Of a stretch of DNA of 64,000 nt, positions 6,741 through 63,719 are shown piece by piece (the first letter of the stretch is position 1; every line of letters starts with the position of its first letter). The notes beneath the pieces are model-generated. The model did no database searches. It worked only from the letters and a program-made list of their open reading frames with translations, and had not been told where the DNA came from. Made by a program: the position numbers and the translations under genes. This DNA is from Streptomyces antimycoticus (lineage in GTDB: Bacteria > Actinomycetota > Actinomycetes > Streptomycetales > Streptomycetaceae), in NCBI RefSeq assembly GCF_005405925.1, contig NZ_BJHV01000001.1:10602001-10666000 (forward strand). Reading direction: 5' to 3'.

Positions 6741-6994
6741 CGACCTCAGCAGTCCCGGCGCGACGGACACGCCGGCACGCCGGGAGCTGAGGCCCATCTG
6801 AGCACCCCGACTTCCGGCTCCGGTCGCGCCGAAGGGCATCCAGTTGGCGGAACAACGGACGGTTGCGTTCCTCGTTGGGTCGGTAAGGACGGCCTGAGCG
6901 AAAGGGGCAATGCCGATGGGTCGGCACAAGCCCAGCAAGCCGCGATGGCCAAGGCCGCCGAGACAGGAGCGTTTCGTGGCTCTACCCACCCGGG

Positions 6995-49977: not shown

Positions 49978-50700
49978 TCAGCGGTGGGTTGTCCATGATC
50001 GTCGGATCAGGCTGCGGACGGTGATGATGGTGTCAGCGAGGTCGAAGAAGGCGTCGATGACGGTGGCGCTGCGTTCGTAGCAGCGGGCGAGTCGCTGGAA
50101 GGCGTTCTGCCGGGGGTGCGTGTGCTCGACGTGCCAACGTCGGCTGGCCTGGATCGGTGCTTTCTCGCCTTTGTGTGCGATGCGGCCGTGAAGGCCACGT
50201 CCGCTGAGCAGCGCGCGGGTTTTGGCCGAGTCGTAGCCGGCGTCCAGGTGCACGGTGACGTCGTCGGGTAACGGCCCGAAGTCGTCGAGGCGGTCCAGGG
50301 TCGGGGCGAGTAGTGGGGGAGTCGTGGTGGTTCGCTCCGGCCAGAACCCTGCCGAGCGGAATTCCGTATCCATCCGTCATCCCCGAGCGCTTCAAGCCTT
50401 GTTTGCGGCGGTCGACCGGTGAGCGCCCGGCGATCCCGCCGCCACCGGGAGCCTTGGTGATGGCGCCGTCGACTGCGATCTGGTCGAGGACGAGGCCAAC
50501 GATCCGGTCGTAGGAATCCCACGTGATCTGCTTGACGATGGCAAAGACATCGAGCCGGATCCACTCGTCATGGCGGTTGCGGATCGTGGTGGCCGAGCAC
50601 GTCGTGTCGGCGATCGCCTCGTAAGAACAGCCGAAACGCAGCAGTTGCAGAAGTTTGTCGAAGATGATCCGGTCGCTGATCCGCCGACGGTGGCAGCCCG
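49978..50700 (-). pseudogene. IS5-family transposase, frameshifted and 5' truncated
   Basis: RRRISDRIIFDKLLQLLRFG, then CSYEAIADTTCSATTIRNRH and LVLDQIAVDGAITKAPGGGG (first Asp) in one frame. After a shift near 50340 the rest is LLAPTLDRLDDFGPLPDDVT, VHLDAGYDSAKTRALLSGRG (second Asp) and RRWHVEHTHPRQNAFQRLAR (Glu), ending ITVRSLIRRSWTTHR. The first residues are missing at the junction with an SDR fragment. Confidence 0.82.
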
Positions 50701-50850
50701 GCGGATGGTCCGGGCGAGGACGTTGATGTCGAACATGCGCATCCACTGGGTGTCGTCGGCGTCCAGGAAGCCGAGGGCGGCCTCGTCGCCGCCTCCCACG
50801 TTGTTGACCAGCGGGTCGATCCCGCCCAGCTCGGCCAGCGCTCCGTCGAT
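50701..50850 (-). pseudogene. Short-chain dehydrogenase fragment
   Basis: GALAELGGIDPLVNNVGGGD, then EAALGFLDADDTQWMRMFDI and NVLA, is the NNAG-type region of an SDR (here NNVGG). About 50 residues remain, fused directly to the IS5 remnant. Confidence 0.65.
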
Positions 50851-51334: not shown

Positions 51335-51600
51335 GAGGGCATTCACGTCCTGCGTGAACCCCGGCACGGCGGACGCGCCTGGGTGGGCCGTCTCCCCCTG
51401 GGTGGGTCGTCTCCCGTCAGCCGCCGACGACCCCGACGCTCGAGTGCGCCGCCCTGGCGGCCCGCCGGCCGAGCGGACGACTGGTGAACGCCGAGGAAGT
51501 CGCCCACGCGCCGCCTGCGACTGCCCCCGATTCCCAACTGCCGTCGCGGTGCCGGATTTCCGCCTAAGGTAGACCGGGAGCCGGAACGACGGGGGTGACG
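51335..51600. other. Intergenic region before the EACC1/caspase pair
   Basis: Contains an 18-base imperfect tandem repeat (TGGGTGGGCCGTCTCCCC / TGGGTGGGTCGTCTCCCG) around 51380-51415. No gene seen. It probably holds the promoter of the conflict-type pair. Confidence 0.35.
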
Positions 51601-51969
51601 ATGCTGGTCCGGATCAGTGCCACGGTGAACGGCGATGACGCGCTGCACGACCTGTACCGCTGGCTGCGCCAGGACGAGGACGTCAAGGGCGTGGCCGAAG
51701 TGCGGGCCGGCTCAGCCGAGCCGGGCAGCGGCGCCATGGGGGGCGTCGAGTACATCAATGTCACGTGCTCGGTTCTCGGCGTGGTGATCTCCGCCTACGC
51801 CGCCTGGCGCTCCGCCCGGCCCTCGGCCCCGCCGGTCCACCTGACGGTCAACGCCACGACGGTCGTCCTCGGGGACGCCTCCCCGGAGACCCTGCGCAGG
51901 GCCGTGGCGCGGCTGGAAGAGGGCGCGGGGGAGGCGGAGCCGGCACAGCGGCGGGCGGATGACGGGTGA
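51601..51969 (+). CDS. EACC1-like small protein
   Basis: 122 residues. Features: LVRISATVNGDDALHDLYRW, LRQDEDVKGVAEVRAGSAEP, GAMGGVEYINVTCSVLGVVI (a hydrophobic helix that could be a membrane segment), SAYAAWRSARP, then VHLTVNATTVVLGDASPETL and RAVARLEEG. This order (ferredoxin-like strands, hydrophobic helix, short strands with a V-LG-ASPE motif) matches my knowledge of EACC1 (effector-associated constant component 1), a small partner that accompanies caspase and other effectors in actinobacterial conflict systems. GGGGGTG precedes the ATG. The stop overlaps the caspase GTG (GTGA), showing coupled translation. Confidence 0.75.
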   Translation: MLVRISATVNGDDALHDLYRWLRQDEDVKGVAEVRAGSAEPGSGAMGGVEYINVTCSVLGVVISAYAAWRSARPSAPPVHLTVNATTVVLGDASPETLRRAVARLEEGAGEAEPAQRRADDG

Positions 51970-54459
51970 GTCCCGTGGCGGGTCTCCCCGACCCGGCCGC
52001 ATCGCGCGCGGTACTCATCGGCGTGAGCAGCTACCAGAAGATGGAGCCGTTGCCCGCCGTGGCGGGCAACCTGCGGCGGCTGAGGACACTGCTCACCGAG
52101 CCCGACCTGTGGGGTCTGAGTCCCCGGCACTGCACGGTGCTGTCCAACCCCCGCTCCACCGAGACGGTGCTCGACGCCGTGCACGCCGCAGCGGCCGAGG
52201 CCGAGGACGCCCTGTTGGTGTACTTCGCCGGGCACGGCCTGGTCTCGCTCAAGGGTGATCTGTATCTGGCGCTGCCCTCCTCGCACGCGGAGCGCATCTA
52301 CAGGGGTGTCTCGTATGATCTGCTGCGCTCTCAGCTGGTCGACGAGGCCACCGCCCGCAGCCGGGTCGTCATCCTGGACTGCTGCTACGGCGGCCGTGCG
52401 CTGGACGGTTACATGGGCTCGGGCGCCAGGGCCGCAGCGACAACCGGGTCCGCTGGATCCGTCGACGTCGCCGACTCGGTCGCGGTCGAGGGGACGTATG
52501 TCATGACCGCCGCCGCCGCGACCAAGCAGGCCCTCGCCCCGCCCGGCGAGAAGTACACGGCCTTCACGGGCGAACTGCTCCAGGCCCTGGAAAGGGGAGT
52601 CCCCAACGGGCCCGACCCGTTGAGCATGGACGCGATCTTCCAGCATCTGCGGCGCGAGCTTGCCGCCAAGGATCGCCCCAGGCCGCAGCAGCGGGCCCGC
52701 AACGGCGGCACCAGCATCGCGCTGGTGCGTAACCGGTGGGCCGTCGCGGAGGCGCGCCGGCGGGCGGAGGAGGCACGGCGGGCCGCGGAAGACGCACGGC
52801 GGGCGGCGGCGGAGGAGGTGCGGCGGGCGGCCGAGGAGGAGGCGCGGTCCGGACGGGCCACCGAGGCACGGGCCCGATCGCTCCTTGCCGCGCCGGAACC
52901 CACCCCCGGCGGGGGCAAGCGGGCGCGGTGGCAGTGGAATGCGCCGCGACCGCTGCGGCTGCGGCGGCCGGGCCGGGTGGTCCTCGCGCTGTCCCTGGTC
53001 GCCGGCTTGCTCGGTGGCGGCACCTATCTGTACGTGCGGGACACGGAAGAGTGCGCGACGGGGGGGCGTGGCCAAGGTGGACAGCGAGTGCGTCGGGGTC
53101 ACCGACGGCCGGTACGTGTTCACCGAGGGGACCTCCGAGGTCTCGAGACGGATCAAGAACGAGAACGACAGGGTCCTGCACAGCGGCGCTCCCTCGGTCG
53201 CCATCGCCCTGATGACCTCGATGACCGCGTCCGACTCGGAGGAGCAACGGCGGATCCAGCACAAACTGGACGGGGCCCTCCTGGCCCAGCAGCGCGTCAA
53301 CGGCGCGGCAGGCAAGGGGCCGAAGGTCCGCCTCCTGCTGGCCAACCACGGTCGCGAAGGCGCCCACTGGGCGAGGGTCGCCACGCAACTGGAGGACCTG
53401 ACCAAGGTCTCGTCCCCGCTGCGCGCCGTCATCGGTCTCGACGCGGACACCGCGCGGACCAACAAGGTGATCTCGCGCCTCGCCGCACGCGGCATTCCCG
53501 TGGTCAGCGCGTCGACCGCACCGGGCCCGGCAGTCACCGGGGACAACGCCCCCACCGGGGTCGCCCGGGTGATGGCCGACCTCGACGACCAGCAGCGCGC
53601 TCTGGTCGACACGTTCGCAGACCTCGACCCGCAGCGGTCGGTCCTCGTCAGCGAGGACAACCCGAGCGACCTGTACGTGAAGAGTCTGCGCTCAGGATTC
53701 CAGCAGATCGTGAAGGCGTCGCCGTTCCCTCCGCAGACCTACCCGCCCTCGGAGAATGGGGAGCAGGACCGTACGAGGGAGGAGGTGATCGCGGACATCT
53801 CCGGCGAGGTCTGCCGGCAGACGCCGGAGATCGAGACGGTCCTCTTCGCGGGCCGCGCGGAGTCACTGCGACACTTCCTCAACTCGCTGGTGCGAAGCCT
53901 GAGTTGCGCCAGGAAGGACCTGACCGTCATCAGTGGCTCGGACGCGGGCCGCCTCACCGTGGACCCACGGCTCGACCGGGAGGGACTGCGGGGCCCGGTC
54001 AAGGTTCGTATGCAGTACGCCACCGCGTTCCACCCCGATGCCTGGCAGGGCCCCTCCGCCCCGAAGACGGGCGGGTCGAGGGAGGCTCTGGAAGCCCTGC
54101 TCCATACGGCGGAGAACAGGGACGGGATGTCCCTGAGCGACGACGACATCATGGACGGCACGCTCGTCGCGACGTACGACGCGGGCCTCACCGCCGTCGC
54201 CGGTATCCAGGGCGCGTACAGGGAGGGGCAGAAGCTGCCCGACCTCGCCGAGGTCGCCGCCAACTGGTCCCGTTTGACCGGCGGACGGAAGGTGGAAGGG
54301 GCCAGCGGCTGGATCTGCCTCGACCTGTCCGGCCACCCCTACAACAAGGCGGTCGCCGTGGCCCAGCTCGACTTCGTAGGCCGGCACCCCAAACTCCTCA
54401 CCGTCGCCTGGCCCGAGGGACGGCCCCCCTCGAAGAGCTGCGCCACGCCTGGAGCCTGA
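51966..54459 (+). CDS. Caspase-like protease fused to a membrane-anchored sensor, one frame change
   Basis: Frame 1 (51966 to about 53055): caspase fold with RAVLIGVSSYQKMEPLPAVA, catalytic His90 in LVYFAGHG and Cys140 in VVILDCCYGG, then TYVMTAAAATKQALA and FTGELLQALERG. An Ala/Arg/Glu coiled coil follows (about 258-300), then a basic stretch and one membrane helix (VVLALSLVAGLLGGGTYLYV, about 338-357). At the G7 run at 53050-53056 the sense changes frame; removing one G gives TGGVAKVDSECVGVTDG and a domain of about 465 residues like a type 1 periplasmic-binding fold (VRLLLANHGREGAHWARVAT, LRAVIGLDADTARTNKVISR, RGIPVVSASTAPGPA). So protease inside, sensor outside, about 830 residues. NCBI-type 'caspase, EACC1-associated' proteins are known; a sensor tail of this kind is the notable point. 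Confidence 0.8.
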
Positions 54460-54596
54460 CGGACAGGGCGGTTGTTCATCGAGTGGCCGAACAGCGAACC
54501 CCCTCGGCTCCGCCCGCTGCCGTTCCCGTATCGCTGCCAGGTGCCGTCGCCGTTCCCCGCGGCAGGTGCCGGCGCCTCGTTGTGGCCGCCGTCTGG
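54460..54596. other. Intergenic region between convergent genes
   Basis: No gene or clear terminator hairpin was recognised between the caspase-sensor stop and the convergent GH13 stop. Confidence 0.3.
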
Positions 54597-60277: not shown

Positions 60278-61690
60278 TCACCGGCCCGCCCCCGTGGGCG
60301 AGAGGACAGCGGGGATGGCGCCTTCCGCGGCCGCCCGCGCGTACCAGTGGCCGCTGTCCTTGATCGTGCGGCGCCGCGTCTCCCGGTCGACGTGGACGAG
60401 CCCGAAGCGGGGCCAATAGCCCATCGCCCACTCGAAGTTGTCCATCAGCGACCAGTGGTAGTAGCCCTCCACTGGCGCGCCGAGGGCGAGCGCCTCGTGG
60501 ACGGCCTTGAGGTGGCCGTGGAGGAAGTCGATGCGGCGTTCGTCGTGCACGGCGCCGTCGGCGGCGGGCTCGTCGCGGTAGATGGCGCCGTTCTCCGTCA
60601 CCAGCAGCGGTACGCCGGGGTAGTCGGCGTGCAGTCTCAGCAGCAGCTCCCGCAGGTCGCCCGGGACGATTTCCCAGCCGAGGTCGGTGCGCGGCACACC
60701 GGGGCGGCCCTCGACGACCTTCCAGGGCCAGGGACCGTCGCCGTGGTCGGCGCGGACGATGCGGCGGGTGTAGTAGTTGACGCCGATGAAGTCGCTGCCG
60801 GCGGCGATGGTGGCGAGGTCGCCGTCCCGGACGAAGTCGAGGTCGCCGATGGCTCGTTCCCAGTGCCGGCGCATGTCCGCGGGGTAGCCGCGTCCGTGGA
60901 CGGGGTCGAGGAACCAGCGGTTGACGTATCCGTCGGAGTGCCGGGACGCCTCCCGGTCGGCGGGGTCGGCGGCGTCGTCGGGAGTGTGCGGGAAGAGGCT
61001 GTAGGCGATGCCGGCCCTGGTGCCGGCGCGTGCGCCGGTCCGCAGTTCGGCGGCCGCCAGGCCGTGGGCCAGGAGCAGGTGGTGCATGACGGTGACCGAG
61101 CCCTTGAGGTCCTTCTCCCCGGGCGCGTGCAGGCCGAGCTGGTGGCCGAGGAGGCCGACGATCCACGGCTCGTTGACGGTCACCCAGTCGCGCACCCGGT
61201 CGCCGAAGGCATCCCGGCAGACGGCCGCGTACCGGGCGAAGTGCTCGGCGGTGTCCCGGATGCGCCAGCCTCCGGCGTCCTGCAGCGGCTGGGGCAGGTC
61301 CCAGTGGTAGAGCGTGACCAGGGGTTCGATGCCCCGTTCCAGCAGGGAGTCGATGAAGCGGTCGTAGTGGGCGAGCCCGCGCTTCTCCACCCGGCCGCGT
61401 CCGTCGGGGAGTATCCGGGGCCATGCCAGGGAGAAGCGGTGGGCGTTGGTGTTGAGGCGGGCCATGAGGGCGACGTCCTCGTGGTGACGCCGGTAGTGGT
61501 CGCAGGCGACGTCGCCGGTGTCCCCGTTGTCGACGGCACCGGGCACGCGGCTGAAGCGGTCCCAGATGGACTCGCCCCGCCCGTCGGCGTCGACCGCGCC
61601 CTCGACCTGGTACGCCGAGGTCGAGGTGCCCCAGCGGAATCCGGGTGGGAAGCGCAGTACGGCAGCGTGTCCGGGACGGTCGGTGGTCAC
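60278..61690 (-). CDS. GH1 beta-glucosidase
   Basis: 470 residues, no signal peptide, so it acts on imported oligosaccharides. Family signs: FPPGFRWGTSTSAYQVEGAV, ARLNTNAHRFSLAWPRILPD, LVTLYHWDLPQPLQDAGGW, the acid/base Glu in VRDWVTVNEPW, SDFIGVNYYTRR, the nucleophile Glu in VPLLVTENGAIYRD, and YYHWSLMDNFEWAMGYWPRF. GTG start with AGGAGG four bases upstream, overlapping the preceding stop (GTGA). Beta-glucosidase, beta-galactosidase or beta-fucosidase activity is possible. Part of the minus-strand sugar operon. Confidence 0.95.
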   Translation of the reverse strand: MTTDRPGHAAVLRFPPGFRWGTSTSAYQVEGAVDADGRGESIWDRFSRVPGAVDNGDTGDVACDHYRRHHEDVALMARLNTNAHRFSLAWPRILPDGRGRVEKRGLAHYDRFIDSLLERGIEPLVTLYHWDLPQPLQDAGGWRIRDTAEHFARYAAVCRDAFGDRVRDWVTVNEPWIVGLLGHQLGLHAPGEKDLKGSVTVMHHLLLAHGLAAAELRTGARAGTRAGIAYSLFPHTPDDAADPADREASRHSDGYVNRWFLDPVHGRGYPADMRRHWERAIGDLDFVRDGDLATIAAGSDFIGVNYYTRRIVRADHGDGPWPWKVVEGRPGVPRTDLGWEIVPGDLRELLLRLHADYPGVPLLVTENGAIYRDEPAADGAVHDERRIDFLHGHLKAVHEALALGAPVEGYYHWSLMDNFEWAMGYWPRFGLVHVDRETRRRTIKDSGHWYARAAAEGAIPAVLSPTGAGR

Positions 61691-63719
61691 AGGTCCTCCT
61701 GGAATTCCGGCAGGTCGAGGGCGTGTTCGCAGGCGTACAGCAGGACGCCCGCGGACCAGGCGTGGGAGAGGGTGAGCAGCATGCCCTTGGCCTGGAAGCA
61801 GTCGGTCTGGTAGAAGCGTTCGCTGACCATGCCGCGGTAGGCGTTGAAGTCGCCGTCGGCGCGGGCGACGAACTGCCGGAAGCAGTCGAGGTTCTCGCGC
61901 GCCGAGCGCAGGTAGTACGGATCACCGAGGTGCCGTGCGAGGCGGACGGTCTCGGGCAGGCAGATCAGCCCGAAGGCGTGCAGGTGCTGGTTGGAGGGGG
62001 ACGCCTGGTCCGCGCCGCGGGTGCGGAATCCGTAGCGGCCGAGCAGGGTGTGCGGGGGGAAGCGGACGTCGTAGGTGTAGCGGAAGGTCAGAGTCCAGTC
62101 GGCGGCCCGCCGGGCGAGGTCGAGCCACCGGCCGTCCTCGTCGTCCGCCTCGTGCAGGAGGGTGTAGGCGATGACGGCGTTGTAGCCGTCCTCGGACGTG
62201 GGGGCGAGCGAGACGTCCTCCGGCGCTCCGCACAGGAACTCGGAGGTGACGTCGGCCGCGAACGCCGCTCCCGCGCGCCGGGCGGCCTCCAGGTGGTCGG
62301 GATCGCCGAACAGGTCGGCGGCCTCGACGAGCGCGCCGACGAACGCGAGCCCGGCCGAGCCGCGGTGGTCGACGGCGGCGCCGGTTTCGCGGTGGTGGGC
62401 CGCGGCGAGTCGTCCGGTGGTGGCGTCCTGGCCCTCCAGGGCGGCCGCCAGGTTGGACCGTACCGCCTGTTCCCACAGCGGGTGGTCGACGCCTCGGGCG
62501 CGTTCGGCGCGCAGGGCGCGCAGCGTGAAGAGGGTGGCATCGCCGAGGGTGCGGGCGTGCAGCCGGTCGCGGTGGCCCGTCCAGCCGGCGGACCAGCCGC
62601 CGTCGCGGGTCCACTGGCCCAGAAGGTCCCGCCGGGAGTGAGGTGGGCGCAGATGTGGTCCAGTACGCCGATCGCGGCTTCGGCCCGGGGCGTGTCGCCG
62701 GTGCGGCGGGCGTGGAGCAGCAGGGCGTGCGCGTACGGTGCGCCGCTGATCCACGAGACGTGCATGGCCTGCCGGTCGCCGCGGGCGCCGAGCGCCTCCC
62801 GGTCGAAGGCGGCGGTCTCCAGCAGGACGGGCGGGTCGGGGCGGTAGTGCCAGCGGTGCAGGCCCTCCGCGCTCAGGGCGGCCGCCTCGCGGACGCCGAC
62901 CCACGCGGCGGGCTCCGGCGGCGTACCGGTGGCCGTGTGCAGGGCGCGGAGCACGGGCGCGTAGGCGTGCGGGTCGGCGTCGAGTAGGTGCACGGTGAAG
63001 TGCAGGATGTGCCGCTCGCCCGGCTGCCACAGGTGCTCCGGGAGGTCCGCGGGGCGGGGCTTTTCCGAGCCGTAGTACGACACCGGCTCCTCGCGGTAGG
63101 GGGCGTGCAGCCGCAGGACCGGACGGTCCCCCTCGGCCAGGGCGAAGCCGACGCCCTGCTGGCCCAGGCTGCCGTGTTCCGCGACGGCGAGCGCGGCGCC
63201 CCCGCGCCGGTCGCGGGCGAACACGGCGGGCGTGGCGCACCGGTCGGCCCGGAAGGACCAGGCGAGGGCGGTGAGGCCCGTCGGGTCCCCCTCCGGGGCC
63301 GCGAAACGCGGGAAGGGGCGCGTGGAGCCGGGCAGCCGGTTCTGCCCGTAGAACACGCCGGGGACCAGCCAGCCGGGGTCGTCGCCGGGGCCGAGCCGCA
63401 GCTCGACCCGGAGTCCGGCGACGGCGGCGTCGGGGGCGGTGCGGGTGACGGTCAGGGTCGCCGCGCGCATACCGGGGCCGGCGGGTTCCAGGCGCAGCTC
63501 GGCGTGGAAGCCGGCGGCGGTGCCCGTCGCGTCCACCACACCCGTGGCGTCGCGCACTACCGCGTCCGGCAGCACGGGGAGGCAGGCCCCGTCAGGGGCC
63601 AGGAGGCCGACCAGGTAGGGGAACTGCGCCAGGCCGTCGGCCTCCTCGCGCAGGACGAGCTCCGGCGGCAGGGGTATGCCAAGGGCCGGCGGGGTCGGGT
63701 CAGTCGAGGACGCGGGCAC
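61687..63719 (-). CDS. Six-hairpin glycosidase-like protein with one frameshift
   Basis: The front half (63719 to about 62625) is beta-rich: LPPELVLREEADGLAQFPYL, DPGWLVPGVFYGQNRLPGST and GALAWSFRADRCATPAVFAR-like text, then a helical part (DRQAMHVSWISGAPYAHALL). Near 62625 the sense continues in the next frame, WTRDGGWSAGWTGHRDRLHA, with an alpha/alpha-toroid ending SEDGYNAVIAYTLLHEADDE, SPSNQHLHAFGLICLPETVR and CFQAKGMLLTLSHAWSAGVL. One added C in GGGCCAG restores about 677 residues. The toroid suggests a glycoside hydrolase or lyase of the six-hairpin superfamily (GH127/GH154-like folds), exact family unknown. No signal peptide. Confidence 0.65.

Follow-up and report, generated by a model that had tools for sequence, protein, structure and literature searches.

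EACC1 (effector-associated constant component 1) and a caspase-like protease are encoded by a two-gene cassette in Streptomyces antimycoticus (GCF_005405925.1, contig NZ_BJHV01000001.1, positions 10,602,001 to 10,666,000 of the forward strand; this stretch of 64,000 nucleotides is called the window). In intact relatives, the caspase chain continues into a transmembrane (TM) helix and a periplasmic-binding protein (PBP) domain, here termed the sensor, as its variable C terminus, but in the window this domain lies outside the caspase's own frame. An earlier note on this DNA had joined all parts into one chain, in which a signal bound outside would trigger a protease inside. Its observations are confirmed in part, and its interpretation is supported in part.

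The EACC1-caspase cassette

The first gene (51601–51969; features lie on the plus strand unless marked otherwise) encodes the 122-residue protein that had been called EACC1-like, and PF19953 bears this out (E 3.6e-19, 69.2 bits, cut-off 23.6). Its best hydrophobic stretch in a simple hydropathy scan covers residues 45–63 and reaches 1.53 over 19 residues, just below the threshold of 1.6. The second gene starts with GTG at 51966 and overlaps the end of the EACC1 gene in GTGA, as the earlier note had stated. Its N-terminal part (51966–52754) is a caspase domain of the EACC1-associated type (NF047832, 245.6 bits, cut-off 140) that carries the proposed dyad as His90 and Cys140, and both the dyad and the fold are those of the Caspase superfamily (Peptidase_C14). 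The two families on which the earlier note had staked its reading are thus both matched. PADLOC matches the protease with its caspase model (7.8e-11) and returns nothing for EACC1 or the sensor at E <= 1. A sequence search with a profile of A1 and the window caspase brought up no solved structure (E <= 0.001; E <= 0.01). EAD2 (PF19956) has two matches elsewhere in the genome and none within the window.

The caspase domain is followed by a long charged helix (52734–52883, corresponding to helix 254–303 in the model of the intact relative P0004), for which the coiled coil of the earlier note is possible. A single hydrophobic helix, VLALSLVAGLLGGGTYLYV, follows at 52980–53036 with a hydropathy of 1.75 over 19 residues, in agreement with the one membrane helix proposed there. 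The sensor (53071–54459) takes on the class I periplasmic-binding (Venus flytrap) fold. Since its score against Peripla_BP_6 is under the Pfam cut-off (21.6 against 31.7), it is termed class I-like by fold and is not assigned to that Pfam family, so that the periplasmic-binding-like domain of the earlier note holds at the level of the fold. The modeled sensor of an intact relative resembles leucine-binding proteins and receptor ectodomains. ANF_receptor domains belong to the same fold class as class I periplasmic-binding domains.

The whole cassette as common to Streptomyces antioxidans (51506–54472, no strand assigned) aligns with locus L039 of that species at 81.9% identity over 2997 columns (blastn). 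The flanks adjoining it have no blastn match to L039 on either side, and the cassette therefore behaves as a self-contained unit. Pieces of an IS4/5-type transposase lie upstream of it in two frames (49978–50746, minus strand), with matches under the Pfam cut-offs. The only other match between the window and L039 (14101–14339, 78.7% identity over 239 columns) is to a transposase-like piece about 700 bases upstream of the L039 cassette.

The window system belongs to the EACC1-caspase two-gene system already described and is not new. This membrane-associated system corresponds to NF047832 of NCBIfam and is "System 4" of Kaur et al. 2020 (PMC7159879), whose passages on it share with the window the gene order, EACC1, the N-terminal caspase and the variable C terminus, and name a TM helix with an extracellular PBP as a C-terminal variant of the EACC1-associated caspase; the window copy differs in that a frame change interrupts it. 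For EACC2, Kaur et al. 2021 (PMC8195603, in the part concerned) give a parallel caspase system, with CHASE2. Caspase-like proteases that carry a ligand-binding domain taken to lie outside the cell also appear in passages of Asplund-Samuelsson et al. 2012 (PMC3501461), where a cyanobacterial metacaspase carries an ANF_receptor domain and a CHASE2 metacaspase is proposed to have its receptor outside and its protease in the cytoplasm. These proteins are from another phylum, and EACC1 is unmentioned in the passages on them. Between the two papers, as far as these passages go, the architecture and the receptor-protease idea are already in print. The claim of the earlier note that a same-chain sensor is experimentally undescribed stands only for experiments: no experimental study of an EACC1-caspase was recognized in a literature search that covered the subscription literature in part.

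Frame change at the seven-G run

The G+C content by codon position changes frame at a run of seven G (53060–53066), and a coding-frame Viterbi scan puts the change at 53049–53065. The 830-residue chain of the earlier note is therefore not one open frame in the window, although it is whole in relatives. The sensor is likewise not a separate gene with its own export, an alternative that was rejected, as the 149 residues open upstream in its frame contain no hydrophobic stretch (best 19-residue hydropathy 0.55). P0004, also from S. antimycoticus, is a whole chain of 827 residues with 99% identity over the caspase part, and P0005–P0008 measure 820–851 residues. With such relatives at hand, the break is private to the window copy, and it represents either a mutation or a sequencing error.

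A sequencing or assembly error in the G run, with the gene of the strain itself whole, has roughly even chances of being the explanation. Runs of seven or more number only two in the window, and the change falls in one of them; the whole relative P0004 is 97.8% identical over the sensor as well. Candidate frame changes in the scan number two for the window (42,890 coding bases) and three for ten other stretches of the same genome (165,408 coding bases), against none for ten stretches of one other Streptomyces genome (164,806 coding bases); six more come from five further loci of the same genome. On the other hand, a run of seven is found at none of the other 10 candidates, and the one near a run of six (L044, near 6285) is an ordinary EACC1-caspase junction, which means that the scan is not clean.

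A real and private mutation in a gene that decays near the chromosome end is given somewhat less than an even chance. About 261 kb of the 10.9 Mb contig remain beyond the cassette, the nearby transposase is split over two frames, and a second window gene near 62620 is apparently split too (62088–63719 and 61687–63240, minus strand). Both halves of the caspase gene, however, remain in open frames and give a clean signal by codon position, so that any decay would be recent. If the change is real, the strain would make a membrane-tied caspase with an out-of-frame tail in place of the sensor, and this protein would probably be functionless or no longer gated.

The G run sits exactly between the membrane helix and the sensor, a position that would suit a programmed frameshift or a phase-variable run that toggles the sensor. 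This is nevertheless very improbable, because S. antioxidans L039 has one frame throughout and lacks any G run of at least six at the corresponding place, and the P0005 and P0006 proteins differ at this spot; a conserved programmed frameshift is disfavored on the same grounds. Whatever its origin, the window copy serves as a warning that a chain read by eye may cross a frame change. A sensor relative in the same genome (L043:6463–8054) also has a frame change, near 6910; in its vicinity is a NACHT gene whose product has an NNH1 domain and matches leucine-rich repeats weakly.

Relatives of the caspase and of the sensor

Relatives of the caspase part number 146 at E <= 1e-10, of which 120 are listed; as 7,992 length-limited candidates were scored, no frequency can be read from the listed ones. 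The His and Cys of the dyad are conserved in all 120 when aligned columns are compared; a regular expression for the dyad overlooked several relatives. The sensor is present on 21 of these 120, and a hydrophobic helix is flagged before it in 18 (19-residue hydropathy threshold 1.6). All five of P0004–P0008 carry the sensor, four of them with the helix flagged. Within the genus, the caspase family is found in 75 of 101 genomes at E <= 1e-20 (above the cut-off in 59), and the sensor part is matched in at least 179 of 295 genomes at E <= 1e-10, a lower bound as five candidates were scored per genome.

Three EACC1 matches occur in the genome, each adjoining a caspase match (the window, L044 and L045), and the three pairs have three different C termini, two of which are unrelated solute-binding domains. 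In L045 (3504–6296, minus strand) the EACC1-caspase leads through a Pro-rich linker and a hydrophobic segment (seen by eye) to SBP_bac_5 (8.1e-71). In L044 (1824–6272, minus strand) it is fused to nSTAND1 (8.9e-109) and WD40 repeats with a hydrophobic stretch between them (by eye).

The sensor also occurs without a caspase. Such stand-alone Streptomyces sensors resemble the window sensor by sequence and have a short hydrophobic N-terminal stretch (by eye); unlike in the window cassette, a divergent AAA/STAND-like protein is their partner on the upstream side. Loci L004–L032, the 29 that match the sensor best outside this genome (37–41% identical in the sensor), show no match to the caspase within the DNA stretch retrieved. 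Among 32 caspase-free sensor loci (L004–L035), 29 have an upstream gene with a match to one or another of five divergent ATPase-like partners, and five of these 29 are the query loci themselves; no ATPase-like upstream frame was found in L023, L030 and L034. The five full-length partners (L041, L043, L046, L047 and L048) include three with AAA matches below the curated cut-off and three with a Walker A motif. Judged from these sequences, the stand-alone sensor and its neighbor possibly form an ATPase-receptor pair.

The sensor tree, into which 39 stand-alone relatives were entered (493–540 residues, one 699), requires three changes for the sensor fusion, or two without P0124 (a truncated record), and two are forced by well-supported branches. 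A quick caspase tree gives three changes with at least two forced.

Proposed signaling across the membrane

The intact relatives are most naturally read as an outside sensor joined to an inside protease, as the earlier note proposed, even though the two halves are in different frames in the window. In these relatives, an outside ligand may gate the inside protease via one chain with EACC1 as partner or brake, a proposal that we consider about evenly poised. The caspase would lie inside and the binding domain outside, where the latter would close on a small molecule, an amino acid or similar. Closure would be relayed to the caspase by way of the helices, EACC1 acting as a brake or as a partner in the membrane, and once active the protease would cut itself and/or cytoplasmic targets. 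The outcome may be the cell death or the developmental cleavage named in the earlier note, or else a shut-down.

A release model runs in the opposite direction. In the passages of Kaur et al. 2020 (PMC7159879) on the system, EACC1 is favored as the sensor: it would sense the state of the membrane and activate the caspase, whose self-cleavage deploys the C-terminal domain. The binding domain would then be a passenger or effector and not the trigger. That proposal builds on an EACC1 TM segment with conserved small residues and on up to 50 different C-terminal domains, and it agrees with L044, which has nSTAND1 and WD40 but no solute-binding domain among the best 25 of 38 families. Release into the cytoplasm, however, is not open to a binding domain beyond a membrane helix, and in L045, P0102 and P0105 a hydrophobic segment precedes an SBP_bac_5 domain. 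Because this unrelated domain occupies the same place, the receptor reading is preferred, and the release model appears unlikely.

Several points weigh against the receptor reading. The chain is broken in the window itself; the helix is unflagged in three of the 21 sensor-bearing relatives (P0006, P0069 and P0076); and the membrane segment of the P0004 model (helix 333–354) is of low confidence. The helix is likewise unflagged in P0112, which carries SBP_bac_3, so that the outside position of that domain is not established. The passages of Kaur et al. 2020 (PMC7159879) take the C-terminal domains as effectors. Finally, the sensor tree is compatible with a single origin of the fusion (approximately unbiased test, p 0.223 for one clade), and repeated recruitment of the class I sensor by caspases is therefore not upheld.

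The additions made here to the published system are the likeness of the sensor model, the three pairs with three C termini in one genome and the ATPase-like neighbors of the sensor family. A tentative and rather doubtful extension of the receptor reading is that Streptomyces hold a small repertoire of ligand-gated transmembrane caspases, in which a constant EACC1-caspase would be joined to solute-binding ectodomains of unrelated families (class I, SBP_bac_5 and perhaps SBP_bac_3), while the class I sensor would be shared with the parallel ATPase-receptor pair. If the receptor reading is true, the intact relatives would allow one to ask whether an outside molecule switches on a bacterial caspase, in parallel to the death receptors of animals. 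If the repertoire exists as well, it would be a bacterial counterpart of receptor-triggered proteases, with one type of outside signal wired to two internal machines.
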